64,000 nt of DNA, from the NCBI GenBank assembly GCA_019044685.2, contig JAGTXX020000014.1, positions 1 through 64,000 on the forward strand. Direction: 5' to 3'. Position numbers and translations under genes: made by a program. The stretch is from Nannochloris sp. 'desiccata'. Its lineage: Eukaryota > Chlorophyta > Trebouxiophyceae > Chlorellales > Chlorellaceae. Below the pieces are notes generated by a model that was not told the origin of the DNA, ran no database searches, and saw only the letters and a list, made by a program, of their open reading frames with translations. The stretch's first letter is position 1. Each line of letters opens with the position of its first letter. This document shows positions 3,466 to 22,081 of this stretch, one piece after another.

Positions 3466-3603
3466 GTCGATTATGTATTTGGTCGTAAATGGGATACTAT
3501 TGTTGGTAAATCTCGCCCTGAATGGTTTTATCATGTAGCTTGGCTTGGTTATTCTCTTGAAGAAGCTACTTGGGAACCCCGCCGCCAACTACGTAATTGG
3601 GTT
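3466..3603 (+). pseudogene. Ty3-C chromodomain fragment between LINE-1 and the CACTA transposon
   Basis: These 46 codons encode the core of a chromodomain (VDYVFGRKWD, then WFYHVAWLGYSLEEATWEPR, then LRNWV). This is the chromatin-targeting module found at the C-terminus of chromovirus integrases. The left edge continues the frame of 226-1905 across LINE-1. The apparent stop codon at 3607-3609 is not the end of the gene: CACTAG at 3604 is the terminus of the CACTA element, and the domain resumes at 21924. Confidence 0.88.
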
Positions 3604-3619
3604 CACTAGTATGTACTAA

Positions 3620-4055
3620 TGGTCCTAAAAGTGTCCTAAATCTATCCTGACAAAAGATGAATTCAGGATACTTTCAGGACACTTTCAGGTTTGCAATTAT
3701 GATACTTACAGGAAAAGTGATAGGACAACTTCAGGATAAAAAAAGACGAGTAGGAACTTTTAGGAGAAAAGTCCAGGACAGTTTTAGGATAAAGAAAAGA
3801 TGGCTAGGGAAGTTTCAGGAGAAAAGTCCAGGAACGTTTTAGGATAAAGAAAAGATGGCTAGGGAAGTTTGCATGAAAAGTCAAGGATGGATATAGGATA
3901 GACAAAGGATACTTTCAGGAGGAAGAAATGACATTATTAGAAAGAAATAAAGACAAGTTGGGGAGAGTTCCAAGAGAGGATATACACACATCATTATTAA
4001 GGCGCTATGGGTAACTGTAATGCAGGACAACAACATAGCAACAACCTCAAGACTT
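3620..4055. repeat. CACTA left subterminal region with 54-bp tandem repeats
   Basis: This region has no gene. It contains many short TCCT(A/G)A and AGGATA/AGGACA motifs and about three tandem units of roughly 54 bp (3728-3780, 3781-3835, 3836-3890). The two later units share the block TTTTAGGATAAAGAAAAGAT and a following GGCTAGGGAAGTTT. Subterminal repeat clusters are where CACTA DNA-binding proteins are known to bind, so this is probably the transposase-binding end. The stretch 3891-4055 is AT-rich spacer before the stop codon of the minus-strand gene. Confidence 0.75.
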
Positions 4056-4938
4056 CTATCTTTGACTTCCAGTACGTCTATTACGTTGGCTACCACTAGC
4101 AGCACCCACTGCTGTTGCGACGGCAGCTGCAGCACGCTGGCTACCACCAGCTGCACCTCGCTCCTTCCTGGCATCCTTTTTGCTTTGCTGCTGTTGCAAA
4201 GCAATTTCTTTTGCATTTAATTGTCCACTTTCCCAATCATATTGTTCCGCCTGCTGTTCAGCATCTTCCTGCCCTGCAGCCATTGCTTCCGCCAATTGTT
4301 CCTCGTCCATCTCTTCCTCTTCTTGCTCCTCTTCCTCTTGCATCTCTTCCTCTTCTTGCTCCTCTCCCTCTAAGTTTTCAAGATGGGATACGATTTCCTT
4401 GGCTTCAGCAAGTGTCATTGCCTTCCACTTTCTCTGCAAATAATTAATTGTGGAATAATTAGTCTAGGGCGGTAACAAAACAATAAGTACCACCTGCAAT
4501 AATATTCACTCACCCTCATCCCCTGTAGTTTGCCACTGATTAACTTCTCCCATTCTTTTGGGTACCCTTCTGCTTTGTAGTACACCAAGTAATCGTGAGT
4601 CCAGTTCTCCACTCTCCTTCTAACGCTCTCATCCCACGCTGCACTCTTAGACCCAATATATCCAGGCTCGGCCGCGAACTTTACCATTTCGCTATTGAGA
4701 TTCGACATTCGTGTTCTGACAGCGCTCTTTACGCGTTTTTCTGTGACACGGGGTTGACCTCCACGAGGTGTAGAGAAGTTAACGACGCTACAAATGGCAA
4801 AAAAGTAGCCAGGGGTCCAAAAAAGCTTTTCGACCTTGTTTTTCAATCTCTCGTTCTGTGGTTTGTCAAAACCAAAGCAACCATATGGGATGCTCCCATC
4901 CCTACCGTTGTATTGAGCGCAATATTTTTCAACCACCT
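4056..4938 (-). pseudogene. CACTA accessory gene, 3' part (exon 2 remainder and exon 3)
   Basis: This is the downstream portion of a 425-residue gene whose 5' part lies at 14502-15057; Ty3-A splits the two. Exon 2 resumes at 4933-4938 and ends at 4514 (donor GTGAGTG), and exon 3 runs 4433-4056 (acceptor TTTGCAG). Coding joins in phase. The protein here has a basic, aromatic region (KYCAQYNGRDGSIPYGCFGF, then WTHDYLVYYKAEGYPKEWEKL). It then has a long Glu-rich stretch and a basic Gln/Arg/Ala tail. No known domain is recognised. Its position, divergent from the transposase in the same transposon, suggests a TnpA-like DNA-binding or regulatory partner, but that is inference. Confidence 0.72.
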
Positions 4939-5163
4939 TGTGACGATACTGCAGCCAGGGTAGTTAAAAAGAAGCTATCCTTTGCAGCATGCATTTTGTA
5001 CCGCTTTCAATACTACTTGAACACCCAATGGGTGACTTGCACAGGGACTTGATTGCTTGATTTTCGCTTGTTACTACTAGAATACGTGTAAATAGTTACT
5101 AGAACACCTACTTGAAGTTGACTTGCACTTGGTGAAGTTCAGCTCACAAGGCTGCTCTTTACA
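4939..5163 (+). repeat. Ty3-A 5' LTR (225 bp)
   Basis: The repeat begins TGTGACGATACTGCAGCC and ends GCTGCTCTTTACA, with TG...CA termini. It is identical by eye to the copy at 14277-14501. A TATA-like ACTATAAAAGG (about 5200-5210) lies just downstream of the LTR rather than inside it, in the leader before gag. Confidence 0.97.
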
Positions 5164-5318
5164 TTTTGGCACCTAAGGAGGGGCATTAACCTCCACACTA
5201 TAAAAGGTCTACAGGTTCTGTGCAAGCAAACGAACTGTTATTTTGCTGTCCTAGGCGAAATTTCTGACTTCTATTTTGCATGCACTAAACTTTGACTTTT
5301 GTTGACTAGTACGAGAAA

Positions 5319-6275
5319 ATGGATCCGATGGAACCTCAACTGTTGCAACTGTTGCAACAGCAGCAAGAACAAATAGCTCAGATGGCGGCTCAAATACAGC
5401 TGTTACAACAGCAGCCAATGGCAGCCGAGCCTGTAGCTGTACCTGTGAATGTACCGGAGAATGGAGACGATATCGATGCAAAGAGGCTTAGGCAGTTTTT
5501 GAAATTAAATCCAAAGAAATTTAGCGCTGAAGATAAGACAGATCCAGAGGATTGGGTTTATCAAATTGAAGTTCTCCTTCAAGCTGCTCAAATAACTGAA
5601 GAAGCAAGCAAGCTTAAGGTTATTCCTCATGTGCTGGAGAAAGCGGCTTTGGTTTGGTGGCGCTTTAGAGCAGAAGATGCTGGAGCAAAAGCAGTGACTA
5701 ATTTTAGAGAGTTTAAAGAGGAATTAATTAGTCAGTATAGACAACAAGATCCTGCACGTATTGCGCGTGGAAAATTGAAACAATTAAGACAAACTGGAGC
5801 TGCCAGCACTTACGCTGATCAATTTTCTAAATTGAATTTACGCGCAAAAGTACCAGATGGAGAGAAACAGTATTGGTTTATGGAAGGTTTGAAGCAGGAT
5901 TTAAGAACAAAAGTTGAAGTTAAGCACACCATGAAAGAATTTGAAAATTACGAGCATTTGGTGCGCTATACTATTGCTGAAGATAATGCTATGTTTCTCG
6001 CCGGCCGCAGCAACGGAAAGCGGAAGAATGGAAACAAGTGGTATGGTGGTCAGGCTAGTAGCAGTGGCAATGGCAATGGTCATGCTTCTCATTCTAATGA
6101 TTCTGCACCAATGGAGGTCGATACCTACGAACATATACCTAAGATGACCCCTGCTATAAAGAAATGGTGTGATGACGAAGGGCGGTGTTATTTTTGCCGA
6201 AGAAAGGAGGGTCACATTGCAAAGAACTGCCCTAGAAAACCAGATAATTACAACCCAAACGAGAAGCGGCAGTGA
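5319..6275 (+). CDS. gag: Ty3-A gag (capsid and nucleocapsid)
   Basis: This 318-residue protein starts at the ATG at 5319, in the context GAGAAAATGGAT. A Gln-rich N-terminus is followed by a retrotransposon gag core (DPEDWVYQIEVLLQAAQ, then VWWRFRAED, then LKQLRQTGAASTYADQFSKL). It ends in one nucleocapsid zinc knuckle, CYFCRRKEGHIAKNC. This knuckle has five residues between the second Cys and the His, one more than the usual CX2CX4HX4C. It assembles the particle that packages element RNA. The stop at 6273-6275 overlaps the protease frame by -1, and a CCCAAAC heptamer at 6254-6260 sits in the overlap. Confidence 0.95.
   Translation: MDPMEPQLLQLLQQQQEQIAQMAAQIQLLQQQPMAAEPVAVPVNVPENGDDIDAKRLRQFLKLNPKKFSAEDKTDPEDWVYQIEVLLQAAQITEEASKLKVIPHVLEKAALVWWRFRAEDAGAKAVTNFREFKEELISQYRQQDPARIARGKLKQLRQTGAASTYADQFSKLNLRAKVPDGEKQYWFMEGLKQDLRTKVEVKHTMKEFENYEHLVRYTIAEDNAMFLAGRSNGKRKNGNKWYGGQASSSGNGNGHASHSNDSAPMEVDTYEHIPKMTPAIKKWCDDEGRCYFCRRKEGHIAKNCPRKPDNYNPNEKRQ
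6254..6260 (+). promoter_or_regulatory. Probable -1 ribosomal frameshift site, C CCA AAC (Ty3-A gag/pro)
   Basis: The heptamer fits the canonical X XXY YYZ pattern in the gag frame (CCA AAC). The -1 frame is open from 6248 onward, and the gag stop is at 6273, so a slip here fuses Gag to protease-pol. Ty3-B has the same heptamer, in the same phase, immediately before its own gag stop. No downstream pseudoknot was worked out. Confidence 0.7.
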
Positions 6276-6754
6276 GTGAAGAGGATGAAGTAGAAATTGA
6301 GGAAACCTCACTGCCAGTAGAAAGAGAAGAACTAGATAGAGATCTTAAGCCAGTAGATTTAGATTTAGGTCCTTTGGTAGCTACGTGGAAGGACACCAAG
6401 TCAGCAAATTTATTAGTTACTAAAGGTAGAGTAGGATGTGCTGTAGCAAATACCTTGTTTGATACTGGAGCATCAGTAACTATAGCTTCAGGTAGATTTG
6501 TAGAGAAACACAAGTTTAAAACGAGAACGATTGAGCATGGACCCATTTTTCGCACTGCCGATGGTTGCAAACATCGTTGCGAGAAGATTATGGATACTGC
6601 TCGATTTACAGCTGGTCCCTATAAAGATACTCTTACCAATGTCTACGTTATCCCTGGAGATTGTCCATTTGATCTAATTCTTGGAAAACCTTGGTTTGAT
6701 GAAAAGAATCCTGAGATTGACTTTCCCAACAACATTATAAAAATGCAGCACAAC
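6260..6754 (+). CDS. Ty3-A protease, N-terminal end of the pol polyprotein (cut by Ty3-B)
   Basis: This frame is reached from gag by a -1 shift rather than an ATG. An acidic linker leads to an aspartic protease domain with the active-site DTGA (NTLFDTGASVTIASG) and the closing ILGKPWF motif. Retroviral-type proteases of this kind act as dimers to cleave Gag-Pol. The frame reaches IIKMQHN at 6754. Ty3-B is inserted there, and the same frame resumes at 11061 (GETIVFRADY) after the repeated ACAAC. The stop codon at about 6758 belongs to the inserted LTR. Confidence 0.9.
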
Positions 6755-6886
6755 TGTTGAGTGTTATACGTATTATAATATATAATTACATATATTCAAC
6801 TATCTAACAGGGGATTGGAGCTTAGCTATATAGTGTGAGAGGGCAGGGGCCACTCCAGGGTCTAATGCTACTAAATACACGTAACA
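6755..6886 (-). repeat. Ty3-B 3' LTR (132 bp)
   Basis: On the plus strand it reads TGTTGAGTGTTATACG to ACACGTAACA, and it matches 10924-11055 base for base by eye. The 132-bp length is very short for a Ty3/gypsy LTR. Its internal side is bordered by the minus-strand purine tract. Confidence 0.96.
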
Positions 6887-7052
6887 TTCTCCCCTTCTTT
6901 ATACCAAAAACACACTTTTTGCAAAAGGATCAAAACTGTACTACAAGTCGGGAACACTCTGATAGCCCCATCGTTAATCACTTGTAGAGTACACAAAGCA
7001 AGACAAAGAATTACGTAAGGTGTAACAACCCATAATCAATCTAAGAAAGTTA

Positions 7053-8561
7053 CTATCGCTGTGCCCTAGTCCTAACTCGAGTAGGCTCTTGCTGCTGCTG
7101 TTGCCGCTGAGTACGAGGCGCTGCCTGCTGCTGCTGGCTATTATTATTCATTTTCCTTTTAGGCTTAAGCGCAGGTCTAGGCTTTCTTGTCTGTAATGTT
7201 TTCAATAATTCGGTAAAACTATCCTTTTCCATCTCTGATTCAAGCTGCTGTACTGGAAGCCAAGATACGTCTTCTGGCGGGTAATTTTCCCAATGCACCA
7301 AAAACTGTTCTTTATAACCACGACCACTTCTCACCCACCTATTCTTGATGAATCTGTCTATTGTAAAATATTCTTCATCACCAATAACTTCTACAGGACC
7401 AGGTTGAGAGTAATCACGGCCAGGGAAGGTGTCTGGATCTTCCTTCCAAGGCTTAAGATTAGAAACATTAAAAGACCTTGTTCTTCCGGCACTCAGCTCC
7501 ACCACAACTGCATTCTCACCACACAGCTGCGTGACAGGGTAAGGACCAAAATACCGATGCTGCAGCTTCCTTGCTGTCACATCAGGCATCTTTAAAACTT
7601 TATAAGATACTAAAACTTTATCACCAACTTTAAACGGACTCGGTCGGCGGTGGCGGTCGGCTCGCTTCTTCATGGTTTCTTGGGCTGCTAAGACACATTG
7701 ATGAGCACACTTCCAGGCTGTCTTTAATTTCTTGAGATAATCATCAGCATGAGGAGATAAAGAAGCGGGCAAAACTGAATCAGCCAATAAGGAAGCAGGA
7801 GTATGAGGGTGCAGACCATGATTAAGAAAGAAAGGAGTTTGACCAGTAGCACCTTGCTTGGAGTTGTTGATCGCAAATTCGACTGAAGAAATATGTTGAG
7901 ACCAGTTGCTGGGATTAGCAGCAGTCCAGTTAGTCAGGGTTTCTTTAATAGTACGGTGACTACGCTCTGCTAGACCATCAGTTTGAGGGTGCATAGCAGT
8001 GGACATCAGCAAATCAGTACCTAAAATTTTCATTAATTCTTGCCAAAACGCTGATGTAAACCTTGAATCACGGTCAGAAACAATAGATTTAGGCATACCA
8101 TGATACTTAAATACACCATCGTAAAAGAGACGAGCAGTACCTTCTCCAGTGATAGATTTCATACAGGGCAAGATATGAACCATTTTAGACATACGATCAG
8201 TAACGCTTAACGCGTAATCCATCCCGGCCTCGTCCGGCGGCATATCAAAGAAGTCAATATTCACAGCCAGCCAAGGTAGTTTGGGTACCTGTACTGGTAC
8301 CATCTTACCATACATGGCTTGATTATCTGGTTTATTACGTTGGCAGTGCGGACAATGAGTGATGTATTTCACTACATCAGCATGCAACGTAGGCCACCAG
8401 TAGTGACGACGCACCGACACGTCAGTGCGCTCAACACCCATGTGACCAGCAGTAGGTGAGTCGTGAAATTCATGAAGTAAGGCGTGAACTTTACTATGAG
8501 GTACAACCAAACACCACTGTGAACCATAAAGACGATACAATTTAGGGATCAGTTTTCCATT
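7053..8561 (-). pseudogene. Ty3-B integrase with chromodomain (pol remnant)
   Basis: The open frame runs from about GKLIPKLYRLYGSQWCLVVP to a basic, Gln-rich tail. It has the integrase zinc-binding region (H-MGVERT, CPHC). The DDE core is visible as NIDFFDMP, VSDRDSRF and HPQTDGLAERSHR. A C-terminal chromodomain (FTIDRFIKNRWV, then FLVHWENYPPEDVSWLP) follows. Integrases of this type insert the cDNA, and the chromodomain steers them to modified nucleosomes. All visible catalytic residues are present. The upstream joint to the protease (about 8540-8560) is out of frame and marks the reverse transcriptase/RNase H deletion. Confidence 0.9.
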
Positions 8562-9288
8562 GCACCGCTACGACAAAAACATCTTGAACTTGATTCAGTC
8601 TAAGGTCGCGTTCATAAGTAGCCATGCTGCACAGAGGGAACGACGGTGCAGGAGCCTTATCTGAATACAAGAGTAATTCCATTCCATCAGCAGTAGACAG
8701 TTGGACTTGTTGTTGCTTAGGCATGAACGTAACGTCGGTAAACTGATCCACCCAGTCCATACCAAGAATGACATCAAAACCAGAAAGCGGAGCAACCACA
8801 AAGCTATGAGTACCACGATATTCACTAATACTAAGAGAAATGTTCCCCAGCACTTGTTTACACTCGTGCCTGGAGCCATCAAAAGCTCTAACTACTAAAC
8901 TTCTACCACGCTGTAACGGAAGCTGTTTTGCACGAACCAGTGCTTCAGACACGAAACTGCCTTCAGCACCAGTATCAATAAAGAATCTAACGGTAGAACT
9001 ACCTAATTTGCCAGTAAAATACATCAATGTACTAGATCTTTCTTGTAGATCTCTTCTAGATTGAATTCTAGCTAAAATAACACCAAGCGGAAATTCCTTC
9101 TGCTGCTGAAGACGCTCTAACATAGCTTCTTCAATAAGATCCCAATCATGGGTTAAACGTTCTAATGCATTAGTTTGGTCATCACTCATTGACTGACCAA
9201 TTCCAGGATTACCACTGGAACAATCATTCTTTACAGAATGGTCCCCAGCACCTTCAATTACAGAAACTACTGGGACACTCAGTTTGGG
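8542..9288 (-). CDS. Ty3-B protease (start of truncated pol)
   Basis: About 250 codons open in the -1 frame relative to gag, entered at the CCCAAAC heptamer (9288-9282). The aspartic protease core shows FFIDTGAEGSFVS and the second motif VILGMDWV. The product ends at WKTDP, where the frame hits a stop within the deletion joint to the integrase. In a complete element reverse transcriptase would follow. The expressed product would therefore be Gag-protease only. Confidence 0.88.
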   Translation of the reverse strand, partial: PKLSVPVVSVIEGAGDHSVKNDCSSGNPGIGQSMSDDQTNALERLTHDWDLIEEAMLERLQQQKEFPLGVILARIQSRRDLQERSSTLMYFTGKLGSSTVRFFIDTGAEGSFVSEALVRAKQLPLQRGRSLVVRAFDGSRHECKQVLGNISLSISEYRGTHSFVVAPLSGFDVILGMDWVDQFTDVTFMPKQQQVQLSTADGMELLLYSDKAPAPSFPLCSMATYERDLRLNQVQDVFVVAVQWKTDP

Positions 9289-10247
9289 GACTTCCCGCAC
9301 TGAGGTAACTTGTGGTCAGTACTACCACATTTGAAGCACTCTCTCTTGGCATACCGAGCTTGGATGAGAGAGAGATCTATGTTCAATTTTTCAGATTTAG
9401 TTTTAAGCCAAGCCTGAACCCGTGCTGGATCAGCTACGGTAGCTGCGTTGACACGACTGGTGGGTTTATGACCACCAGCTGCAGCCCTGCGCTGCTTGTC
9501 TTGGAGGTAGCGTTGATTCTTAGTGTCCAGATATTTGACTATAGAATTGCCTTGGAGTGGCTCTAACGCTTCATCTCGCAGTCCATCATCGCTGCGTTCT
9601 TGCAGGCGATCCAAATACGCAGTTTGCAAGGAAGGGGGAAGACCCTTAAGGAAGGCAAGGTGCTGGTCTTCAATGCTCTTGGGAGAGGAAGAAAGACGGA
9701 AGAGCTCACAAAGACGAAGAACGTACTGTTGAACCGATTCGTCGCTCTGTAATTTAGCATTTGCCAGTGCTTCCATAACCCAGTGTTGAAGATTGGTTCT
9801 AGGAAGGTATTGGCTGGACAGACGGGACAAAAATTCGTCAAAAGTGGGCACGATAGCGGCACCGTGAACTTCGGCAAGGAAGAGATCCAACGGAGGGCCT
9901 GCCAACGCTTCACCAAAGCCAACGCACTGTTGCCAGGTGGTAGTGAGGCCTCGACTACGCATCACGTACCTCAACTGGTTGACCCAGCGATTCCATGCCA
10001 AAGGCGGCTGCAGCTCAAGCTGGCCGCTGAATTTTAAAGGCATGTTGATGCTTTTCAATTTCTTGCCCAATTCTGGGTCAGCCCAGGGGTCCGCATAAGC
10101 GGGGGAGTCATGCTCAGACACGGGAACCGAAGATGCTCCAGGGAATGGTGGACCTAAAGGCTGGGTGCTACCCTCCGACAAAGGATTTTCAGCAGCGAGC
10201 GGGTTGGTGTGGAAAAATCGAACTTGAATTTCACTGTCGGTAGCCAT
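9279..10247 (-). CDS. gag: Ty3-B gag
   Basis: This 322-residue Gag starts at the ATG at 10247. A variable N-terminus leads to a gag core (WNRWVNQLRYVMRSR, then LQHWVMEALANAKLQSDESV, then LKGLPPSLQTAYLDRLQ). One canonical zinc knuckle, CFKCGSTDHKLPQC (CX2CX4HX4C), lies at the very end. The slippery heptamer CCCAAAC is followed directly by the TGA stop (9281-9279), so the -1 protease frame is entered at the last codon. The intact Gag fits an element that can still be packaged. Confidence 0.93.
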   Translation of the reverse strand: MATDSEIQVRFFHTNPLAAENPLSEGSTQPLGPPFPGASSVPVSEHDSPAYADPWADPELGKKLKSINMPLKFSGQLELQPPLAWNRWVNQLRYVMRSRGLTTTWQQCVGFGEALAGPPLDLFLAEVHGAAIVPTFDEFLSRLSSQYLPRTNLQHWVMEALANAKLQSDESVQQYVLRLCELFRLSSSPKSIEDQHLAFLKGLPPSLQTAYLDRLQERSDDGLRDEALEPLQGNSIVKYLDTKNQRYLQDKQRRAAAGGHKPTSRVNAATVADPARVQAWLKTKSEKLNIDLSLIQARYAKRECFKCGSTDHKLPQCGKSPN

Positions 10248-10923
10248 AGAGAGTGGACTAAAGGGGACGGCGCGACTGCGGAAGTATTTTGCTGCTACAG
10301 GCAGTTATAACACAACCTAACAGTGTGGTCTAAGAGCTGGAAGCTCCTAGGTGAGTTGTGACTTGAGTTTGCTAGATTGATGTGCGAGGCCAAGGCAGCA
10401 GGGGATCAGACTGCTGTTGGCAGGGCGAGGAGGTAAATCAAGGTCTGAAACAGAAAGGAAATCGAGTTGTTCCTCTTGCTTCACGTCTTATACCTCGGTA
10501 TCCAACTCTGCAAGGGAATAACAGAAGAAGAACCGCCAGTTAGACTCTGACTTAAAAAACTTGATTGACAATGCGTGGAGTGCCCTCACACCAAAACACG
10601 AGAAAATCCTCCCAGTGCTTGCCACCGTGTAGAGAATAATTTTGCAACTATTATTCTGGTGTAAGCGAGCTGCTTGCGCTAAGCAGAGATCATTCCGACA
10701 TGTTTCATGCCCATAACATGCATCTGCGATAAACGATCTGATTTTCCGTCAAGTTACTATGCTCCCACTTCCAGAGGGTCAGGTACACTCTAAGTAAGCT
10801 AGAGTATCGCCCTCCGAAAGCACCGTGCACCCTGTGTGGCTTTCGCCACAATTAGATGAAAGTTGCTTACTCTTGGGGTCCTCTAGAGGAGGTCTATGTT
10901 TTTTTAATTAAGCTGAAACCAAT
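10248..10923 (-). other. Ty3-B leader between 5' LTR and gag
   Basis: This is 676 bp with no open frame worth calling. Next to the LTR (minus strand, 10923 downward) is ATTGGTTTCAGC, a candidate primer-binding site because it begins TGG as the complement of a tRNA CCA end. The long leader presumably holds packaging signals. Confidence 0.6.
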
Positions 10924-11055
10924 TGTTGAGTGTTATACGTATTATAATATATAATTACATATATTCAACTATCTAACAGGGGATTGGAGCTTAGCTATAT
11001 AGTGTGAGAGGGCAGGGGCCACTCCAGGGTCTAATGCTACTAAATACACGTAACA
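10924..11055 (-). repeat. Ty3-B 5' LTR (132 bp)
   Basis: This is the partner of 6755-6886, identical by eye. Immediately to its right is the second copy of the ACAAC target duplication (11056-11060), after which the Ty3-A pol frame resumes. Confidence 0.96.
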
Positions 11056-14000
11056 ACAACGGTGAGACGATAGTGTTCAGAGCTGATTACCATGAACAAA
11101 AAGTATTACGAGATGCTGGCATAATTTCTTCAGTGGAAATGTATGCTGAACTTGCCTCAGGAGGTTATATAAACATCTGCATGATGAAACCTGTCCCTGA
11201 CGATTACGAGAATTACGAGTTCGACGAGAATGGCCATAAACTTGATAAAACCGGTTATGAAAAATACGCAGACGAGATACTTCGGGAATTTGTAGATGTT
11301 ACAGATCCAGATATCCCATATCCAGTTGACAGAGAAGTAGAACATGAAATTGAGCTTGAGCCTGATGCTAAAGCTGTAGCGCAGCAAATGTACCGCCTGA
11401 CGTTTGAAGAATTAGCTGAATTGAAGAAAACAATTATAGATTACTTGAATAAAGGCTTTATTAGACCTAGTAAATCACCTTTTGGCGCTCCAATATTGTT
11501 TGTACGCAAGAAAGGTGGAGCATTACGTATGTGTGTAGATTATAGAGGCTTAAATAGGATTACTAAGAAGAATCGCTGCCCGCTCCCGAGAATTGAAGAT
11601 TTATTAGATCAGCTGGCGGGAGCTAAGTTCTTTACTAGCTTAGATCTTACCAGTGGATACCATCAAATCAAGATTAAAGAAGAAGACATAGAGAAGACTG
11701 CATTTAGAACACAGTTTGGGCATTTTGAATTTTTAGTGATGCCTTTTGGCTTGTGCAACGCACCCGCCACTTTCCAAACTTTAATGAATACTGTTTTTAG
11801 AGAAGAGATTAATCATTTTGTTTTAGTTTATTTAGATGATATTATGATTTTCTCCAAGACTTTTGAAGACCATCTAAGGCATGTACGCCATGTGTTTCTA
11901 AAATTAAGAAAGCAACATTTTTACGTTAATAAAGAAAAGTGTTCATTTTTCAAAACTAAAATTGCTTGGCTTGGCTACATTATCTCTGATCAAGGTATTG
12001 AAGTTGACCAAAGCAAGATTACAACAATTCTAGAATGGCCCGAGCCAAAGAATACTACAGATATTTTATCTTTTTTAGGTTTTACTGGATGGTATCGAAA
12101 ATTTATTGAAAAATATTCCCACGTGGCAGCACCCATGACTGAATTATTAAAGAAAGAAGTTCCTTTTATTTGGGGTGCCCCACAGCAAGAAGCTTTTGAA
12201 TTATTAAAGAAGAAATTGACTAATGCACCTGTTTTGATTTTACCTAGCCCTGATTTTCCTTTTCATATGTATACTGATGCTTCTGACTTTGCTTTTGGTG
12301 GTGTATTAATGCAAGACCAGGGCCAAGGTTTGAGACCGGTGGCCTACTCATCCAAGAAGCTGAGTGAAGCTGAGCGAAAATATACTATTTACGAGAAAGA
12401 AGCACTTTCCCAGATCCATCACTTGCAGCTTTGGCGTTGTTACTTGCAGGGCGCACCTAGAAGTACTGCTTATACCGATAATGCTGTCTTAAAAAATCTG
12501 CAGACTCAACCTCGACTGTCGCCCCGACAAGCCCGCTGGATGCTGGTACTACAAGAATATAATCTTTACGTAGAGTATATAGCTGGTAAAGCAAATGTGG
12601 TAGCAGATGCTTTATCTAGAAGACCTGATCTTGCTATGACTGTGGTTATTGCTCGTCAGGATAGTGAATGGTTGTTAGAATTAAAAGAATCTTACGAGAA
12701 AAATGACGATGCCAAGAAAATTATTAAATTAATTCAAAATGGTACTAGTAGAAATTATGCATTTGACCATGGTTATATTGTACGTAGAACTCCTACACGT
12801 ACTCAATTATATATCCCTGATGTAGGAACACTGCGACACGATCTGTTGATAGAGCACCATGACTCTCTTTTAGCTGGGCATTTTGGCGCAGCAAAAACTG
12901 GCGCTCTGCTGTCCCGTCATTATTATTGGCCACAGCAGCTACGCGATGTGCGTGAATTTGTTCAAGCTTGTCAAGAATGTGGTAATTCTAAGAGTTCTAA
13001 TCAGAAGAAGCCTGGTCTCTTAAAATCTTTGCCTATTCCTAAAAGAAGATTTGAAGTTATAACGATGGATTTTGTTACGAAGCTGCCGGAAGCTGACGGC
13101 TTTACTGCAATTATGATTATGGTGGACAAATTGACTAAAAGAGTCTTTTTAGCTCCCACAACTGATGCAATAACTGCTGAAGAAGCTGCTACTATGTTCT
13201 TTGAGCACGTAATTAGAAACCAAGGAGTACCTTCAATTATTATTTCTGATCGCGGCACTCAATTTACGAGCGTCTTTTGGAAGTCGATGGTGGCACAACT
13301 TGGAATCAAGCACAAACTTAGTACTGCATACCATCCTCAAACAGATGGTCAATCGGAAATTACGGTTAGAATAGTTATAGATCTTTTGCGTACCTTGCAT
13401 TATCAATACAAGAACTGGGTTAAAATTTTACCCGCTGTCGAATTTGCTATTAATAACAGCGTCAATGCTTCTACTGGAAAGACTCCCTTTTTCCTTTGCT
13501 ATGGTGAAGAAGTTCCTACTCCCGCAAGTATTAACCTTCAATTTTTAGCAAGGAATAATCCCAATCAACCTTCAGTGGATTTTGCTGAGCGAACTCAAGT
13601 TGCTGTTCAGCAGGCGCAGCGAGCGCTGGTGAAAGCACAGCAGCGACAGAAAACTTATGCTGATAAAAATAGAAGATACCTTACTTTTGAAGTAGGTGAC
13701 CAAGTGTATATTTCTACTACTGATTTACCTTTGAAAGGTCCTCGAAGATTAGCTCCTAAATGGTTTGGTCCTGTTCCAATAATTGAGAAACTTAGCGATT
13801 TAAATTACCGTGTAGCGTTGCCAGAAATGTGGAAGCGCAGACACCCTGTCTTTCACATTGAAAAATTAAAACCTTTTGTAGTGAGTACTAAATTTCCTAG
13901 TCGTTCTGATCGTAGACCTCCTCCTGATCTGGAGCAAGGTTCAGATGTCTATAATGTTGAGAAGATTTTGAATCGCCGCTCGACCCGTCGAGGTCGTGGT

Positions 14001-14138
14001 TGGAGAATAGAGTATTATATTAAATGGGAAGGATATCCAATGTGTGATTCCACTTGGGAACCAAAAACTAATTTACAAGATGCAGGCACTAAGGTGCAGA
14101 GAATGATGCAAGAAGTAGATCTACAGCATAACACTTAA
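11056..14138 (+). CDS. pol: Ty3-A pol: reverse transcriptase, RNase H, integrase, chromodomain
   Basis: This is the main part of the pol polyprotein, in the same frame as the protease at 6260-6754. The reverse transcriptase has FIRPSKSPFGAPILFVRKKG, LDLTSGYHQI and the catalytic LVYLDDIMIF. RNase H follows (MYTDASDFAFGG, then YTIYEKEALS, then AYTDNAVLKNL). The integrase has its HHCC zinc region and the DDE core (TMDFVTKLP, ISDRGTQF, HPQTDGQSEITVR). It closes with a chromodomain (YNVEKILNRRSTRRGRGW, then YYIKWEGYPMCDSTWEP). All key residues seen are intact, so Ty3-A was recently competent and is broken here only by Ty3-B. A run of 20-odd A bases follows the stop. Confidence 0.96.
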
Positions 14139-14276
14139 AAAAAAAAAAAAAAAAAAAAATAATTATCCCGTTGTTTGATCTTACTTTCCAGTTACTTTGT
14201 TTGTTTGTTTATTTTTCTCATTCTATCTACCCCAATTCTAGCGTGAGGACACGCTTACAGCGAGAGGGGGGAAGAA

Positions 14277-14501
14277 TGTGACGATACTGCAGCCAGGGTA
14301 GTTAAAAAGAAGCTATCCTTTGCAGCATGCATTTTGTACCGCTTTCAATACTACTTGAACACCCAATGGGTGACTTGCACAGGGACTTGATTGCTTGATT
14401 TTCGCTTGTTACTACTAGAATACGTGTAAATAGTTACTAGAACACCTACTTGAAGTTGACTTGCACTTGGTGAAGTTCAGCTCACAAGGCTGCTCTTTAC
14501 A
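14277..14501 (+). repeat. Ty3-A 3' LTR (225 bp)
   Basis: It is identical by eye to 4939-5163 and is preceded by the purine tract at 14262-14276. The CACCT target duplication follows at 14502-14506, after which the split accessory gene continues on the minus strand. Confidence 0.97.
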
Positions 14502-15057
14502 CACCTCATTTAATTTCTCTGTCTCCTCCTTTGTCAATTTGTTCCTGTTGACTCCTCCCACACTCTGCAAGCAAGTAAATAGCGCCTGAGTATTAGTTAC
14601 CTTGCATTGACAGCACAATCAGTTGCCATGTTATACTTACCGTTGCACCAGTACCAGTGCCATTGCTTCCGCCATTCTCATCCATAGTGTCCAGACATTG
14701 GAAGCTGTGACTTGCTCCGTCCACGAATGACACCTCCAGAGTAATTGTATCACTGGTGCAACCAGAAAAGAAAGCTTCGTGGGCGTCATTACCAGCTGCT
14801 AAGGACTTAATTCCGTCTAAAATTGCAGCAGGTGACATTAATGTGGCCACTCCGCTTGCATCTTTGCCGTGAATGCGGACGCATTTCCGCTTCCCCTCCA
14901 AGTCATTTGAGGTCTTGATGTCATCAAATGCCGCCTTTAGGCGACGCTTTGGCGTCGCCAGCTGCCAGTTGGGGTCATTCTTCAACTCAATGGGGACGTT
15001 CACGCTGCCTTGTGCGCCGTCTTCCGTTGTTCTGAGTTGGAGTATTGTCTTAACCAT
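14502..15057 (-). pseudogene. CACTA accessory gene, 5' part (exon 1 and start of exon 2)
   Basis: The chosen start is the ATG at 15057 (MVKTILQLRTTED). Exon 1 runs to 14641 (donor GTAAGTATAA), and exon 2 starts at 14564 (acceptor CTTGCAG). After 21 codons exon 2 meets Ty3-A at 14502 and would continue at 4933. With the element and one CACCT copy removed, the frame reads KLNEV-VEKYC without a break, and the whole gene would encode 425 residues. Exon 1 has a compact region rich in beta-type residues (RRLKAAFDDIKTS, then KCVRIHGKDASG, then ITLEVSFVDG). No family is recognised. It is divergent from the transposase, whose ATG is only 191 bp away. Confidence 0.75.
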
Positions 15058-15248
15058 AATTTTCTGATCCAAGAATAACAGTTAATTCTGTGAAAACCTC
15101 CATCCTTTGCATTCTTTTACGCGATTTCCTCTCTTGTTATTTTTTTTTTTTGAATCTTTCCTTAAAAAGCCTTCAGGAAATAAAGCCTCTTTCAATGAAA
15201 GCGGGTTGCTTTTCAACTCTTCCATACTTGTTAACCACAGTAAACAAC
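15058..15248. promoter_or_regulatory. Shared divergent promoter region of accessory gene and transposase
   Basis: The 191 bp between the two opposite ATGs hold no coding sequence. They include a T-rich tract (15140-15152) and must carry both promoters. No convincing TATA box is seen. The assignment is inferred from the divergent layout. Confidence 0.5.
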
Positions 15249-18200
15249 ATGGCCCCTAGGAAAAATACCATCTCCATCCTTGATCCAACTATCAACGCTG
15301 AAGTGTGCATATATTGCAAGGATCCCAGTAAGCCTAGGCCTGCCTGCGATGTCGGAACAGCCGAATATTACACTTGGCGCCATCACCACACTAAATGCAA
15401 AGACGCACTCCTTCCAAATTCCCATCTTGGGCAGGTAAGCTTCAAATTCATCGAATTTTTCGAACATGCCACGTCAAAACCCCGCCGACATACCTAGTTT
15501 CTCTGTCTTCTGCTCTAATATTACTTCCTATTCTTCTTCCTTACTTGTTACATTAGGCGTTGCAGGGTAACCAGCAACAGGGTCCCTCAACATCGGCCAT
15601 GCCGACCTCTGCTCAAGTCCAAACGGAACCTGGCCTTCAACGGCCAACTCCCATGGAAGACGACATGTATGACAACCATCATGGTGACCATGGCAGCATG
15701 GAAGACGATATGGCCGCAGATTCACCTTCTGCTTCAAATGATCACGAGATGCAAGATGCCGCCAATGCTGGTGGGTCCGAGGGTTCATTTGAAGACGATC
15801 AAACTTCATTTGAAGACGACTAAACATTGGATATGCTACCACTTACTCTTGATGATTTTAATGATCATCGCCAGCCACGCATAAACGAAGCAAGGTATTT
15901 TGAGATGAATCACAATGAGCCATTATGGCATGTTGATGAAAGTGCAACATGCCAGCTCACCGTCTTGGAAGCATCTTACCTCATATTGGTTGTAGCGCAC
16001 GAGGAACGTTTCACGGAGAAAGCTACTTCAATCATGTTGAAACTCATTGGAGCATTGTTGCCCAGCGGTCATAAGCTACCCAAAACGTACGATGTCTTAA
16101 GAAAGTCACTAGGCTTTAAAGGGTTAGAGCCTTATGAACGGCACGTATGTTCTTGTGGACAGCATATGTACGATTCTACTGAGCGTAAGCAGTGGAATAG
16201 CCACCGTGAAGATACTTGCCCTAAATGTAAGAGCCCCCGCTTTCTTGCTTTAAGTGGCGGTGGCTTCAAGCCGTCTAAGAGATGCTATTATTTTGGTGTT
16301 GAAAACACCATCAAACGTTTGTTCTCAATGGCAGATTGGGTAGAAGCAAGACCTAGCGATTACGAGGAGATGAAAGAGGATCCAGGGAGCTTTTGGTCTT
16401 CTCCAGCGGCTGAGGAGATCAATAGGAAAACGAATTATGCTTTATTTCACCCCCAAAATGGAGCTTACTCTATAGGATACGATTTTGTGAACTTGTTTGG
16501 GCACCAAGAGTATTCTGTTGGCTTGGTGCACCTCCGGAGTGAGTCCCTACCAGATGAAGTACGTAGCAAACGCCGTTACGATTTGCCCCTGATGATTATC
16601 CCTGGTCCTAACATTCCAGAGAGTTTGGATGCATATATGGGGTTAATAGCCATAAACTTTAAGAAGATTGGCCCGCTTAGTGGCGGTCCCGGTATCCTCG
16701 TCACCCCAATGCAATATGAACAGCCTCTAGGTACTGCCTGTACTGCTCAAGGCTCTCCAGCGGCGGCGACAGTGGCAGATAATGTTGAAGTAAATGATGA
16801 TATCGATGCTTTGCGACCTCAAAAAGCCGGAACTCCGTTCTATCACATACCTATTCTAGTGTTTATATACGCTGATGCTCCTGCAAGAGCAAAACTATTA
16901 AAATCTACTGGCACCGCAGCGGCATATTTAGCTTGCTTTTGGTGTTGGCTCACAGGAGAACGGGTTAATATTGAAGGTGTATTAGATATTTCAAACGGTA
17001 CGATGGTAATGCGTGGATATGCTAAACATGTGGAACCTAGTTGCGGTTTTGTCTTTGGAAAAATAACACAGCGGGACGGTTCTGTGAAAGTAGCGGAACC
17101 CCTGTCAATGGATGATAGGAGAAGAATGGTTACGGAGGAGCATCAATCCCAACGCGAAGCGGCTGCTGAAGAGCTTATATCTGAACGCAATAAGGAGGCT
17201 GCGGCCAATTTAGGTTGCATGGGAAAGTGCATCATCTTAACACACCTCCCGTACTTGAACGCTCGCAACCTTTTCGTACTCCCACTTTACCATATGCTAT
17301 ATTTAGGTGTTGTAAAGGATTTTTTAAAACTTGCTATGGGCCATAAAGAAACCAAGTTAAGGAAGGAAAGCATGGAAATTAGTAATGAAGCGAAAAGAAA
17401 GATTGCTGAAATTGAAGGCCGGATCCAATTAACTGGTGATTTCGGGCGGCCAATTCAACCACTTTCTGTGCATAGAGGATGGCTGATTGAACATGTTAGT
17501 ACCTTTGTTGATTGTACTTCTAAAGTTCTATTCAACGACGTCGTAGTAGGGGTAGAAGTCTTGCCACCCGAAATGAAAAAAGGATGGAAGTTATTACGGA
17601 AAGCCTTGCTGCATTATTTTAGGCCGCATTTGAATCCGGATACTTGCCATTCCGCTATAGCACGCGAAGCCGCTGCCAAAGCATTGTTTGATTATGGTGC
17701 TTGGGCCGAGAATATTGGACTTTCCCGCCAAATTTGCAAATTTAATTTGCATACAGCGTGTTGCCGCCTCCCCCGTCAAGAAGAAGAAATGGGCCAACCA
17801 ATACGATATAACGAAATGCACGTCGAAAATAACATGACGAGTGGGAAGAGCAAAACTAGAGGCCATACTACTTCTGAATATCCTGAGCTAACTATTGCTG
17901 AAGGGTACGCTATTAATCACGTATTGCAAAAAAAGTTGGTTTCGAATCCGACCTTAGCCAGCGTACAAAAAGAAGCTTTTAAAAAAATACGACGTAATAA
18001 GAACGTTGATGAAGGCGCAACAAGAGACGAAAATGATGTAGCTATGTTGTTTACTGGAGTAGAGCCTTCTATGGACGATTGGGGTAAAGAGATTCTAGTA
18101 GCAATAAAAAGACTTGCTGCAGTGGATGGATGGTTGCCTGAAAATTGGAAGAAAGAATGGTTGAATGGAGCTGATAACGATAGGTTTGAGGCCTTAAAAC

Positions 18201-18664
18201 CAATGGTATACACGAGTGCTGTCATTCATAGCGTTAGTATCATCAGTTCAGTAGAAAATAAACGGGAACGTACCCGTTCTTCCTGTTTCGTACAAGTGAG
18301 GTTTGTGAAGGCGACTGGAGAAGAGCATTGTCGGCCAGCTTGCATTAGAAAATTGGTTTTGATCCGTCCACCGGTAGAGGAGGAAGGAGGAGGGGGTGCA
18401 CAACCTTTTCGTATTGCGTTTTGCGACGTCTTTAAAGAGCAACGGCCTTTGGGAGATGCTGATAACGGAGAAGTACTCCGTGCTCACTTGACAGGTTCTG
18501 ATAGCGATTACCAGCATAGAATGTATCCAGTGGACTTGAGTTCTATTGATTCCAAGTTGGTAATGGTGGCGACGGATAAGTTCAGGTCCTCTAGAATCAA
18601 TCTCGGCACTGGGTGGCTATATTTCGTTACTTACGGTATTACCACGGGGCAAGGCCCGATATAA
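15249..18664 (+). pseudogene. CACTA transposase (Tnp2/Transposase_21-like) with one in-frame stop
   Basis: Exon 1 (15249-15434) encodes MAPRKN and a Cys/His motif (CIYCK to HHHTKC) resembling a BED/CCHC finger. An intron (GTAAGC to TTAG) joins in phase to exon 2 at 15557. The frame then meets TAA at 15821-15823 and stays open for another 946 codons. Downstream is a second zinc motif (CSCGQHMYD to CPKCKS). The Tnp2-type core follows (YDLPLMIIPGPNIPESLDAY, then PILVFIYADAPARAKLL, then YLACFWCWL, then LPLYHMLYLGVVKDFL). Family knowledge points to Tnp2-class DDE transposases of CACTA/Plavaka elements. The TAA either kills the gene or must be read through or spliced around. Confidence 0.8.
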
Positions 18665-19526
18665 TTTCTATTTTATTTCATTTCTTAAAACCCCGTCGTA
18701 GCTTTACCTTCTTTCGCTACTATCTATTAATGTAAAGAGTGCATGCACTGCTAGTGCTGCTTTAAATAAGCTTACAAATATTCTTTAGTTATTCAAACAA
18801 CAAAACAGCAACAACATTTATTTTACTTCTTTGGATACTTCAGCAATTCTAGGTGGAGATCTTGGTCCATTTGACATATAGGTGACAAACCCAGCGTTTT
18901 TAGACGCTTGACACTGAGCTTTGCTGCATAATCCAGCAATTGTGGGCGAAGTTTGGTGAGTTAGTAAAACAGCACCGAAACAGCACCAGACTTGGCTTCA
19001 AAGCATGGCGCCTTGCGAGGCCTTGGAGGAGGAGAAGGGCGGCGGTCGTTTTAAAAGCAATTGAAGCGCCTAGCGGTGAATATAATTAAGGGATCAACAT
19101 TACCTACTGGTTTTTTACAGTTCCACAAGCGGCAGGGAGCGCTATACCTGTGTTCTCGCATCTTTAGAGCCAACACAATTCACATTTTAGAATAGAACGT
19201 CAACTTGAAACTTCGTTCGAACTTGGCTGGCACCCCATCGGCTTCATCAATACTCTACAAAGAATTCCCAGAAATTAGATTTCCTTGTAAAAGGCGCTTT
19301 CTCCAAAAACAAGTAAATTGTAATCTTGAAGGTAGGATTCTCTTTGTGATGAACAAAAACTGACTGTTTTTAAGTTTCTATTTTCTGAGAAATGACGTAC
19401 ATAGGTGTATTCACTAGTTTCGCTCAGCGTATTGGGTTTTGTAGGTCTTGCGGAACTTCTCTATTGCTTTTTTGATCACATGCCGCCAAACGCTCTAATG
19501 CTAGCCGTGTGGCTACCACTAATGCC
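18665..19526. other. CACTA internal spacer between transposase and TET/JBP-like gene
   Basis: About 860 bp without a recognisable gene. It should contain the transposase 3' UTR and the promoter or 5' UTR of the next gene. The frame of the next gene is open only back to about 19476, so an upstream small exon cannot be ruled out. Confidence 0.5.
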
Positions 19527-20939
19527 ATGCGTAAGAAGAGGTTAAAGACCTTGCATGACTATGGAAGCACCAGGTCGTCTATAGATGCAGAATCAAGGAT
19601 GAAAGGGGCATCTGAGAAAGTGGTGGTGACGGAAGGCACTCCCGCTGTCGTTTATAAAGCCGGCGGGGCCCATTACTGGGAGTTGTTGACGGAAGCACAA
19701 AAGTATTTGTCTAAACCGGTGGAACTACCCAATATCTACGTCGTAACCAAGGCAAACGTTTTGCCTTTTGGCAAGGACCTGCCCTTAAGCAAGGTATCTG
19801 AAACAATACCTACTGCTGCCACCAAAGCACGAATTAAAGGTACTATTACCGATACTAATAGTAAAATACAAGACTACCTTGTAGATAATGTGGTTGGGTA
19901 CCACCAACTGGATTTACCTTGTGTTGTTCTAGCGACGCATGAAGTGAATGAAGCTTTGCTAGCAGCCGCAAAGGAGGCAGGCTCTCAAGATCTCAAGATG
20001 CCGTCAGAGGAAAAATATTATTTATTATTTGCTAGCGTTGACCTTTGCCAATTGCGCTTGTTGACGTTAGAGGGAGCGAGCGTGTTGGGTCACGCCAACG
20101 AAGCGATAGCTGATTCAACATTAAGCGTACCGATAACATCACCAGCTACAAAGCGGGCTCATTGGAAGTTGTTGGGAACTGAAATCTTAAATCTACCAAA
20201 ACAATTGAAGAGCAAGGTAGGAAGTAATTATAAGAAGATAAAACGTAGAATTCCCCCCGCTAACATGTTTTCTACGTTCCTTCGCTACTCTAGGAACCCT
20301 AAAGACTATAAAAACGGGACCCAAGTTGGTGGTCGTACTGTAAATGGGGAACCCGTAAAGCAACAAACTGCCTGCTCCTCTGCTATCGCTAGCCGTGAAG
20401 TACATAACGTTATTATGCAAGCGATGAAGCCGATAACTCTGTTACAAAGAGACTTTTTAGCTGCTAACAATCCTACTACCACGTCAGTAGTAGTTAATTG
20501 GATGAATATGAATGCCAAGGCTATCACGACGGGTGGTTGGGGCGTTCTACCTCACTTAGATGGTATGGATTCTGGGGGCGTAGCTTACATAATTCAGTAC
20601 GGACTAGGAGATTTGAGAGAATTACACGGAGGACATATGTGCTTGCCGCAATTACACCTAATTTGCCCAGTAGGAGCCTGCACTGTGCATTTTTTAAGAA
20701 CTGGCTCTTTATTACACAATTCATTGCCTCACGTTGCAAGTGAGAAAGCACGGGTAGTTGGCACATCATTACACGTCAATAAAAGTTTTTTGATAATGTC
20801 TAACGCTCAAAGTAGGATGCAGGGTCTTGATGGCGAGGGCTATGTGCAGTACGCTCAGGAAAGTTGCATTGACAGTGAAACTTTAAAGGACTGCACAGAG
20901 ATGAAAAAGTTATTAAAATTTGGAAATTGGAGGGTTTAA
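19527..20939 (+). CDS. TET/JBP-like 2-oxoglutarate/Fe(II) dioxygenase carried by the CACTA element
   Basis: The open frame encodes 470 residues from the ATG at 19527; the frame stays open about 50 bases upstream without another ATG. The C-terminal third has the order expected of a double-stranded beta-helix dioxygenase of the TET/JBP group. It has an iron-binding HxD (GVLPHLDGMDSGG, H near residue 342). A glycine/leucine strand follows (YGLGDLRELHGGHMCLPQL), then a loop (CPVGACTVHFLRTGSLLHN), then the distal iron His and an Arg that could bind 2-oxoglutarate (SLPHVASEKARVVG). TET/JBP enzymes oxidise methyl groups on DNA pyrimidines. The N-terminal region is basic and unassigned. The fold call is by eye; another 2OG oxygenase subfamily is possible. 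Confidence 0.66.
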   Translation: MRKKRLKTLHDYGSTRSSIDAESRMKGASEKVVVTEGTPAVVYKAGGAHYWELLTEAQKYLSKPVELPNIYVVTKANVLPFGKDLPLSKVSETIPTAATKARIKGTITDTNSKIQDYLVDNVVGYHQLDLPCVVLATHEVNEALLAAAKEAGSQDLKMPSEEKYYLLFASVDLCQLRLLTLEGASVLGHANEAIADSTLSVPITSPATKRAHWKLLGTEILNLPKQLKSKVGSNYKKIKRRIPPANMFSTFLRYSRNPKDYKNGTQVGGRTVNGEPVKQQTACSSAIASREVHNVIMQAMKPITLLQRDFLAANNPTTTSVVVNWMNMNAKAITTGGWGVLPHLDGMDSGGVAYIIQYGLGDLRELHGGHMCLPQLHLICPVGACTVHFLRTGSLLHNSLPHVASEKARVVGTSLHVNKSFLIMSNAQSRMQGLDGEGYVQYAQESCIDSETLKDCTEMKKLLKFGNWRV

Positions 20940-21110
20940 AGGTGTATTTCTTAAATATGTTACATATTGCAGTATTTCAGATAATGGTAAATCTTCAAAG
21001 AAGGCAGAAGAAATAAACATTTAGCAGCTTGCTGTCAACAATTAGCAGCTTGCTGTCGGGAGAGAAAGAAAGAAAGCAAAATAAAATGATTCCGCGCCAC
21101 TTTTATTGCG

Positions 21111-21630
21111 ATGGCTACCAATAAGACCCTAAATAATCCATTTAAATCACTCAACCCCATTCATTCGCACGGGAGCAAGGCAGTAGATAAGGAGCTGGAC
21201 GCGATCAAAGGAGTAATTAATTTAAAAAGTAATCTAATGAATTCATATTCTTCAAAGAAGTTCCCACACTTGGAATATCATCCAGAGAGTGATAAAATTC
21301 ACGAAAAGCTTTGGGACTTCCAAGTGAACACCCTGAAAAGAGCGACTTTTACAGGAGTAATTGCGACCGAGATGCTCTCTCATTGAAGGGGCTTAAAGAG
21401 GATGTTGCCAAGTACGCAAAGAAGCTGAAAACCACGTCTTGCCAAGGCGGATACATTGATATACATGCAATATCTCAGTTACTGAACAAAAAATCATTTT
21501 GCAAAAGCATTCGGATGGGGACAAGTACGTTGAGTATGATCCCACCCATGGCGTTGCTGAGGATGGTTTGCCGCCATTGCATCTTGCTTTCAGGAAAAAC
21601 CATTACGTAGCTCTTGTGAAGGCGGAATAG
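21111..21630 (+). pseudogene. OTU-like cysteine protease remnant (two frameshifts) in the CACTA element
   Basis: The first frame, from the ATG at 21111, gives about 90 residues (FPHLEYHPESDKIHEKLWDF). It is followed in a second frame by SNCDRDALSLKGLKEDVAKY and QGGYIDIHAISQLLN. A third frame gives ISVTEQKIILQ and LHLAFRKNHYVALVKAE. Read together these resemble an OTU domain: an N-C-x3-A-L/S nucleophile block, a GG-x-I-x-I-x-A-I-S strand and a closing HY-x-A/S-V histidine. OTU enzymes cleave ubiquitin-like conjugates. Either the gene is decayed by two indels, or small introns were missed. It lies in the same orientation as the TET/JBP-like gene. Confidence 0.52.
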
Positions 21631-21639
21631 GAGTATTAC

Positions 21640-21923
21640 ATGGTAGGAAGACTATCTCAAGGCACTAGCTTAAAGTAGTAGATGGGAAAGGAGAAAGGAA
21701 GGGCACTTTAGGTGAACCAGTGGCGGTGCCCAGCGCTGGCATGGCGGAGGTCATTAAAGTAGGTCAATTGCGACTTTTTCTTAAATTTTTTTGTACAGGT
21801 ACTTTTATGTAAGGTATAGAAGGTATGTAGAACAGTAAATAAGGGCATTAGAGTCGTTTTAGAGAAATGCAATTTTACAAGATAGTTTTAGGATAGTTGC
21901 AAGAAGACTTGTTCCCCCTAGTG
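21640..21923. other. CACTA right subterminal region
   Basis: About 280 bp with no gene. It contains TTTTAGGATAG near 21889, which matches the left-end repeat motif in the same sense, and it ends CCCCCTAGTG at 21923. Subterminal motifs are sparser here than at the left end. Confidence 0.6.
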
Positions 21924-22081
21924 GTTCATCTTTAATGCCGAGTATACTCGGCATTAAAGATTTAATTGATGAATATGATGCTGCACACCCACTCAAACGT
22001 GGAGAAGCGACGCTACCACCTTGGCCTACTGTTAATTCTAAAAAGAAGAAGAATATCAAGGAACCTACTAAAAAGAAGTAA
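21924..22081 (+). pseudogene. Ty3-C chromodomain end and C-terminal tail
   Basis: After the GTT target duplication the Ty3-C frame gives V-H-L. It is then interrupted by a palindrome and continues as KDLIDEYDAAHPLKRGE with a lysine-rich tail (KKKKN, KEPTKKK), stopping at 22079-22081. LIDEY is the expected last helix of the chromodomain begun at 3466. The palindrome adds about 23 bases, which introduces a stop and shifts the frame. Confidence 0.75.
21928..21961. repeat. Perfect 34-bp palindrome within the Ty3-C chromodomain
   Basis: The two 17-base arms (ATCTTTAATGCCGAGTA and its exact reverse complement) meet with no spacer. The outer six bases on each side are explained by the host sequence, leaving about 23 extra bases in the centre. 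It could be a footprint left by an excised DNA transposon or a tiny fold-back insertion. Confidence 0.85.

Follow-up and report, generated by a model that had tools for sequence, protein, structure and literature searches.

A CACTA-type transposon of the green alga Nannochloris sp. 'desiccata' and its cargo gene for a possible Fe(II)/2-oxoglutarate dioxygenase

Contig C14 of Nannochloris sp. 'desiccata' starts with a 64-kb stretch (hereafter the window; the assembly has 21.55 Mb in 18 contigs, each given here as C with a number) that opens with CCCTAAA telomere repeats and contains an 18.3-kb interval, 3604-21923. An earlier note on this DNA had described the interval as a CACTA transposon that carries a TET/JBP-like dioxygenase gene and could edit the methylation of its own DNA. 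The locus raises the question of whether the interval is one mobile unit, whether the putative dioxygenase gene (the cargo) moves with it, and whether the cargo product might act on host methylation. We find that the interval is a real CACTA-type transposon and that the cargo travels within it; the nature of the cargo product has to be weighed against several alternatives. The host name is the one borne by near-identical NCBI proteins.

The mobile unit and its copies

The features that delimit the unit, and the cargo open reading frame (ORF), are as follows.
3601-3603 (no strand): left copy of the 3-bp target site duplication, GTT
3604-3609 (plus strand): left terminus CACTAG, also found at C16:17211, C8:190044 and C8:130968
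3604-3953 (plus strand): subterminal region containing six AGGATA and eight CAGGA motifs, along with direct repeats of 55 bp (3753-3916)
15218-19106 (no strand): stretch missing from the short C16 and C8 copies, holding the transposase and not the cargo ORF
19527-20939 (plus strand): cargo ORF of 470 amino acids, putative Fe(II)/2-oxoglutarate (2OG)-type dioxygenase
21918-21923 (plus strand): right terminus CTAGTG
21924-21926 (no strand): right copy of the target site duplication, GTT

As the earlier note had it, the sequence directly shows a CACTAG at 3604 and a CTAGTG whose last base is 21923, with GTT flanking the pair. The 5'-CACTA...TAGTG-3' ends that mark CACTA (EnSpm) elements are complete in the C14 copy and in a copy on C16, each with its own 3-bp target site duplication (GTT on C14, TAT on C16). 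The inverted end is very short (6 bp). Without a nested Ty3 retroelement the unit would measure about 8.75 kb.

We reject the claim that a host reading frame is rejoined across the element. The joined flanks run into a stop after ...RNWVHL, and the host DNA beside the element holds 32 extra bases relative to a related sequence on C16 (from 16211) that lacks the insertion. These bases are part of a perfect 34-bp palindrome (21928-21961), four bases past the right end, and might have originated by hairpin-type repair. More than half of them are an inverted copy of adjacent host DNA.

Genome searches with the element ends, which give lower bounds on copy number, returned at least six matches at five places for the left 797 bases and at least seven for the right 984 bases, four of the latter near-identical and covering at least 982 bases. 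The copy at C16:17211-22074 (4,864 bp) is complete at both ends and flanked by a duplication of its own. The copy at C8:190044-194905 (4,862 bp) retains the left end, lacks 2 bp of the right end and shows no duplication. Both have lost the transposase, and in both the cargo ORF is still open. They differ by two substitutions and two missing end bases over 4,864 bp. Because they share the internal deletion and are near-identical, it is the shortened, cargo-keeping form itself that occurs in two places. Two partial copies lie head to head at C2:30768-43020, one of them with the right end; here a deletion fuses transposase and cargo into one open frame of 1,245 codons, and a predicted transposase-cargo fusion of 1,304 amino acids is present at NCBI (KSW81_003806). 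A 930-bp left fragment at C8:130968 is too short to show presence of the cargo. One end is kept in each of the C2 and C8:130968 copies, so that a target duplication cannot be assessed there, and the copy on the short contig C18 is broken by further insertions.

The genome-wide copy check, set beforehand, bore out the placement of 19527-20939 inside the repeated unit: the cargo is present in every copy with both termini, and we found no two-ended copy without it. Measured from stop to stop, the cargo frame has 487 amino acids. Its residues 4-487 are matched at 100% by both the C8 and the C16 copy and residues 173-487 by C2, and two separate pieces match on C18. A decayed remnant of the N-terminal half lies at C6:2289231-2289995 (29-59% identical by piece), and the cargo family is therefore not new to this genome. 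Short right-end-like sequences occur on C6, C9 and C10 (74-77% identical), and only the one on C6 ends in CTAGTG. This diverged right end, at C6:1547186 to about 1547371 (74% identical), is probably a relic of an older relative.

The cargo gene and its product

The cargo has a longer N-terminus in the C16 and C8 frame, which encodes 486 amino acids; the window has one base fewer near the start. Searches for relatives, each scoring about 8,000 candidates, identified two distinct ENA proteins outside Nannochloris sp. 'desiccata', on short contigs and at 42-44% identity. The family seen in these searches consists of three distinct proteins and near-identical copies. Its most conserved block reads ...GGWG..PH.D..D.GG.A.IIQYGLGDL....GG.MC.PQ....C..GACTVH..RT....HN.LPH......R.VGTSL, within which lie all four residues of one further feature.
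20553-20753 (plus strand): candidate active-site pattern H343-x-D345 ... H397 ... R409, invariant in 3/3 sequences

An H-x-D...H...R pattern is common to the 2OG superfamily at large and is not specific to TET/JBP proteins. The iron triad of the superfamily is also stated in a recent study of transposon-borne TET/JBP genes (Kojima 2025, PMC12730594). In the cargo, H343, D345, H397 and R409 are placed as expected for the residues with which Fe(II)/2OG dioxygenases bind iron and 2-oxoglutarate, and on this pattern we consider it fairly likely that the cargo is a 2OG enzyme of some kind.

The label TET/JBP-like, as given in the earlier note, finds support only in the invariant H-x-D...H...R pattern and a weak pairwise similarity, and in no profile. 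Compared pairwise with a non-database fungal TET/JBP-like string, the three family members gave scores that 25, 7 and 249 of 1,000 shuffles reached, the first two standing out against the shuffles and the third not. The TET/JBP identity of the cargo is not established.

A series of results counts against a dioxygenase, and against a TET/JBP enzyme in particular. The profile search against TET_JBP and other 2OG-Fe(II) families, which had been proposed together with the label, produced no match: Tet_JBP (PF12851) was not matched by any of 3/3 family members in hmmscan at E-values up to 10, nor anywhere in the genome at E-values up to 1; 2OG-FeII_Oxy_6 (PF20515) did not match the cargo, and in the genome search with this profile no control matched either; and no oxygenase family profile matched the cargo in Pfam scans. 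Sequence searches of the PDB with the cargo gave no oxygenase match. AlphaFold models reached a predicted local distance difference test (pLDDT) score of 29 and 33 and are unusable; the fold search with the second of these, too poor a model, had no oxygenase among the matches listed. Against NgTET1, a solved TET enzyme, 101, 182 and 152 of 1,000 shuffles reached the pairwise score for the three members, none of which stands out, and profile comparison was at chance level (21 of 100 shuffles for NgTET1 and 61 of 100 for the fungal string). The NCBI model of the cargo on C8 (412 amino acids) skips an internal part of the open frame, which we take as coding because the two relatives have sequence aligned to it. 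The negative result with the Tet_JBP profile is nevertheless soft, because even a 79-residue segment of NgTET1 gets no further than E 0.015 with PF12851 and because HMMER filters drop weak matches.

The strongest alternative is that the cargo is an unrelated element-specific protein, such as a transposition or DNA-binding factor, in which the H-x-D...H...R pattern is coincidental. We find this possible but doubtful. It would account for a protein that neither profiles nor sequence searches nor folds mark as an oxygenase, with weak similarity to fungal and solved TET segments, and with only three distinct family members, besides near-identical copies, in the searches described above. Coincidence, however, has to explain why four residues are invariant at about 44% identity, ordered and spaced as in the superfamily, and inside the best-conserved block of the protein. 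Shuffling invariant residues among the invariant positions gave the pattern in 94 of 20,000 trials (82 of 20,000 for full shuffles), although the pattern window was picked after the sequence had been seen, which lessens the force of these counts.

A second alternative keeps the 2OG enzyme and places it outside TET/JBP, acting on protein, RNA or small molecules with no anti-methylation role. The lack of a cargo match to the Tet_JBP and 2OG-FeII_Oxy_6 profiles would favour such an enzyme, with which the superfamily-wide residue pattern is equally compatible. Against it stand the transposon-borne 2OG enzymes of fungi, which are of TET/JBP type as described by Kojima (PMC12730594), and the PE-type fungal members, which sequence methods likewise barely detect (HHpred E 1.4 to CMD1, the TET homologue of Chlamydomonas; PMC12730594). 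We judge this alternative unlikely. The last, a subtelomeric segmental duplication in place of a transposon, is suggested by the telomere repeats that open the window and by several copies near contig ends, and we reject it as very improbable, since the termini CACTAG and CTAGTG with their 3-bp duplications bound the unit and these duplications differ between C14 and C16, and since two of the sites on C8 are 131 and 190 kb into a contig of 554 kb.

We return to the reading that we favour, in which 3604-21923 is a low-copy CACTA (EnSpm) transposon whose cargo enzyme is divergent, probably of 2OG type, and may work against DNA methylation; as an explanation of the whole we give it roughly an even chance. 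A Tnp2-type transposase would cut and paste the element between its CACTAG and CTAGTG ends, leaving 3-bp duplications, and a second, 425-residue protein may assist at the ends. The cargo would be a divergent Fe(II)/2-oxoglutarate dioxygenase, an activity that we infer from the residue motif, binding iron through H343, D345 and H397 and 2-oxoglutarate through R409. It would probably act on modified bases in the DNA of the element or nearby, and so may ease silencing by host cytosine methylation. This anti-silencing role is suggested by analogy with the TET-bearing transposons of fungi and by the methyltransferase genes of the host. A bolder version, which we put forward only tentatively, is that a green-lineage CACTA element acquired a new TET/JBP-like family of DNA dioxygenases, in an event separate from those in fungi, and demethylates its own DNA with it; the shortened copies without transposase would then keep a cargo important enough to be retained, and one copy would have joined transposase and dioxygenase.

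Transposase, second protein and insertions

The remaining features of the interval are given here.
15249-18664 (plus strand): transposase gene, whose first exon, judged against P0006, starts at 15249, with a long ORF at 15824-18664
14641-15057 (minus strand): exon 1 of the 425-residue gene, start codon at 15057
14502-14564 (minus strand): exon 2 of that gene, proximal part
4514-4938 (minus strand): exon 2, distal part, split by the Ty3 element
4056-4433 (minus strand): exon 3, acidic, then with a glutamine- and alanine-rich end
4939-14501 (plus strand): Ty3-type long terminal repeat (LTR) retrotransposon with chromodomain, nested; a later insertion and not part of the CACTA element
6755-11055 (minus strand): second retroelement, inside the Ty3 element (repeat match 6751-6886 / 10920-11055)
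21111-21630 (plus strand): broken coding remnant, called OTU-like in the earlier note; no family match

The long transposase ORF contains the motifs D217FVNLFG, IIPGP at 255, D348APA, C368xxC371 (CFWC) and PELTIAEGY at 684. We take IIPGP, DAPA and PELTIAEGY to be like those of Tnp2. The 53 D/E/C/H positions common to this protein and to a relative encoded on C1 include D217, D348, C368 and C371. Of the conserved residue series, D348 may be the second D, a reading of our own, and H(3-4)H and the final E are unassigned. No profile supports the assignment: in Pfam nothing matched the long ORF over the cut-off (best E 0.09, to a zinc finger), and Transposase_21 gave no match at E-values up to 10, the genome search with it having had no matching control. 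The long ORF itself is real. Because of the motifs, the C1 relative and the element ends, we regard the long ORF product as a CACTA transposase, its class being suggested by the motifs.

The C1 relative belongs to a second CACTA element near a telomere, at C1:2322-14976 (12,655 bp; loci L030 and L031), with a TTT duplication and a perfect 14-bp inverted end beginning CACTATAGG. It resembles the window element in its CACTA ends, its 3-bp duplication and its related transposase (26-27% identical). It differs in having no match to the cargo ORF; in its stead is an ORF that encodes a core-histone fold (PF00125, E 5.6e-19). The fold is preceded by the stretch NCGAYCLYY, which to our mind recalls Ulp1-type proteases and has no profile match.

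The 425-residue unknown protein of the earlier note is real: splicing three minus-strand exons of the C16 copy gives exactly 425 amino acids, with a strongly acidic stretch near the end. Its separate open frames have no family match over the curated cut-off (best E 0.02). The second intron donor is GC rather than GT in the C16 and C8:190044 copies; it is GT in the window, in both C2 copies and at C8:130968. CACTA elements normally carry a second protein that aids excision and transposition in specific families (PMC4158355), and the usual second-protein role (ORF2/TNPA), assisting at the ends, is most likely for the 425-residue protein. The OTU label, in contrast, was rejected: 21111-21630 is a broken coding remnant, and its short pieces (3/3 scanned) had no Pfam match at E-values up to 10, a soft negative.

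The Ty3 element makes up half of the 18.3 kb and was absent from the title of the earlier note. Its two LTRs (4939-5163 and 14277-14501) are identical over 225 bp and are flanked by the duplication CACCT. It splits exon 2 of the 425-residue gene in the window copy, and the C16, C8 and C2 copies span the site uninterrupted. The retroelement inside it has an integrase-type ORF on the minus strand and a duplication, ACAAC, read from the sequence. In the C18 copy (13.8-kb contig, loci L018 and L019) a member of this Ty3 family occupies a different place, and the cargo gene is split by another insertion. Within the transposase gene of the window, relative to C2, an in-frame stop lies just ahead of the long ORF. 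Because of this stop, the Ty3 insertion in the 425-residue gene and the base missing from the cargo, the window copy is not intact, and the notion of a self-contained module fails for it.

Host methylation and known systems

Four host loci match the C5 DNA methylase family in a profile search in which 10 of 14 control genomes matched. One match lies at C14:70488-72119, about 6.5 kb past the window, in an open frame of 1,244 codons. The CpG observed/expected ratio is 0.68 in the window, 0.90 in the transposase ORF and 0.82 in the cargo ORF; this mild depletion tells against an anti-methylation role, though as evidence either way it is weak. Picochlorum soloecismus is, we presume, of the same clade as Nannochloris sp. 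'desiccata'. About 12.1% of its CG sites are reported as methylated (PMC9861306). With cytosine methyltransferase genes present in a 21.5-Mb genome, the copies are few enough to be counted and tested singly. Should the cargo prove to be a DNA dioxygenase, a green alga would have arrived at the anti-silencing strategy of the fungal elements, and a family of base-modifying enzyme would have been missed by the profiles tried.

By titles and abstract openings, we recognised no TET or dioxygenase gene in a green-alga transposon among the open-access papers listed. Chlamydomonas and its relatives are reported to harbour Kyakuja and Zisupton elements (PMC8226300). CMD1 of Chlamydomonas is an algal TET homologue that makes 5-glyceryl-methylcytosine (PMC12730594); known here by description, it shares with the cargo a green-alga host and the superfamily iron-site pattern and, unlike the cargo, is not described as transposon cargo in the excerpts of that paper.

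Plant CACTA elements (En/Spm), as described in PMC4158355, have CACTA/TAGTG ends, a 3-bp duplication and a transposase with a second protein, as here. The algal element differs from that description in its extra cargo gene, its 6-bp inverted end and a transposase unseen by the Transposase_21 profile.

The closest parallels are fungal. The earlier note named KDZ transposons as TET carriers, and fungal TET-bearing EnSpm/CACTA elements have been published too: TET-bearing transposons are described in three fungal lineages, and among fungal DNA transposons 11 lineages, EnSpm included, contain TET/JBP genes, with silencing escape as the proposed benefit (PMC12730594). The algal element is unlike the TET-bearing EnSpm elements in its host and in a cargo without Tet_JBP match, the fungal cargo being compared by description only, and PE-type fungal members have H-x-E where the algal cargo has H-x-D (PMC12730594). 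As in the elements of Puccinia and Agaricus described there, a transposase and a dioxygenase-like cargo are found in one element, and the Puccinia striiformis families have CAC..GTG ends and 3-bp duplications, as does the element of Nannochloris sp. 'desiccata'.

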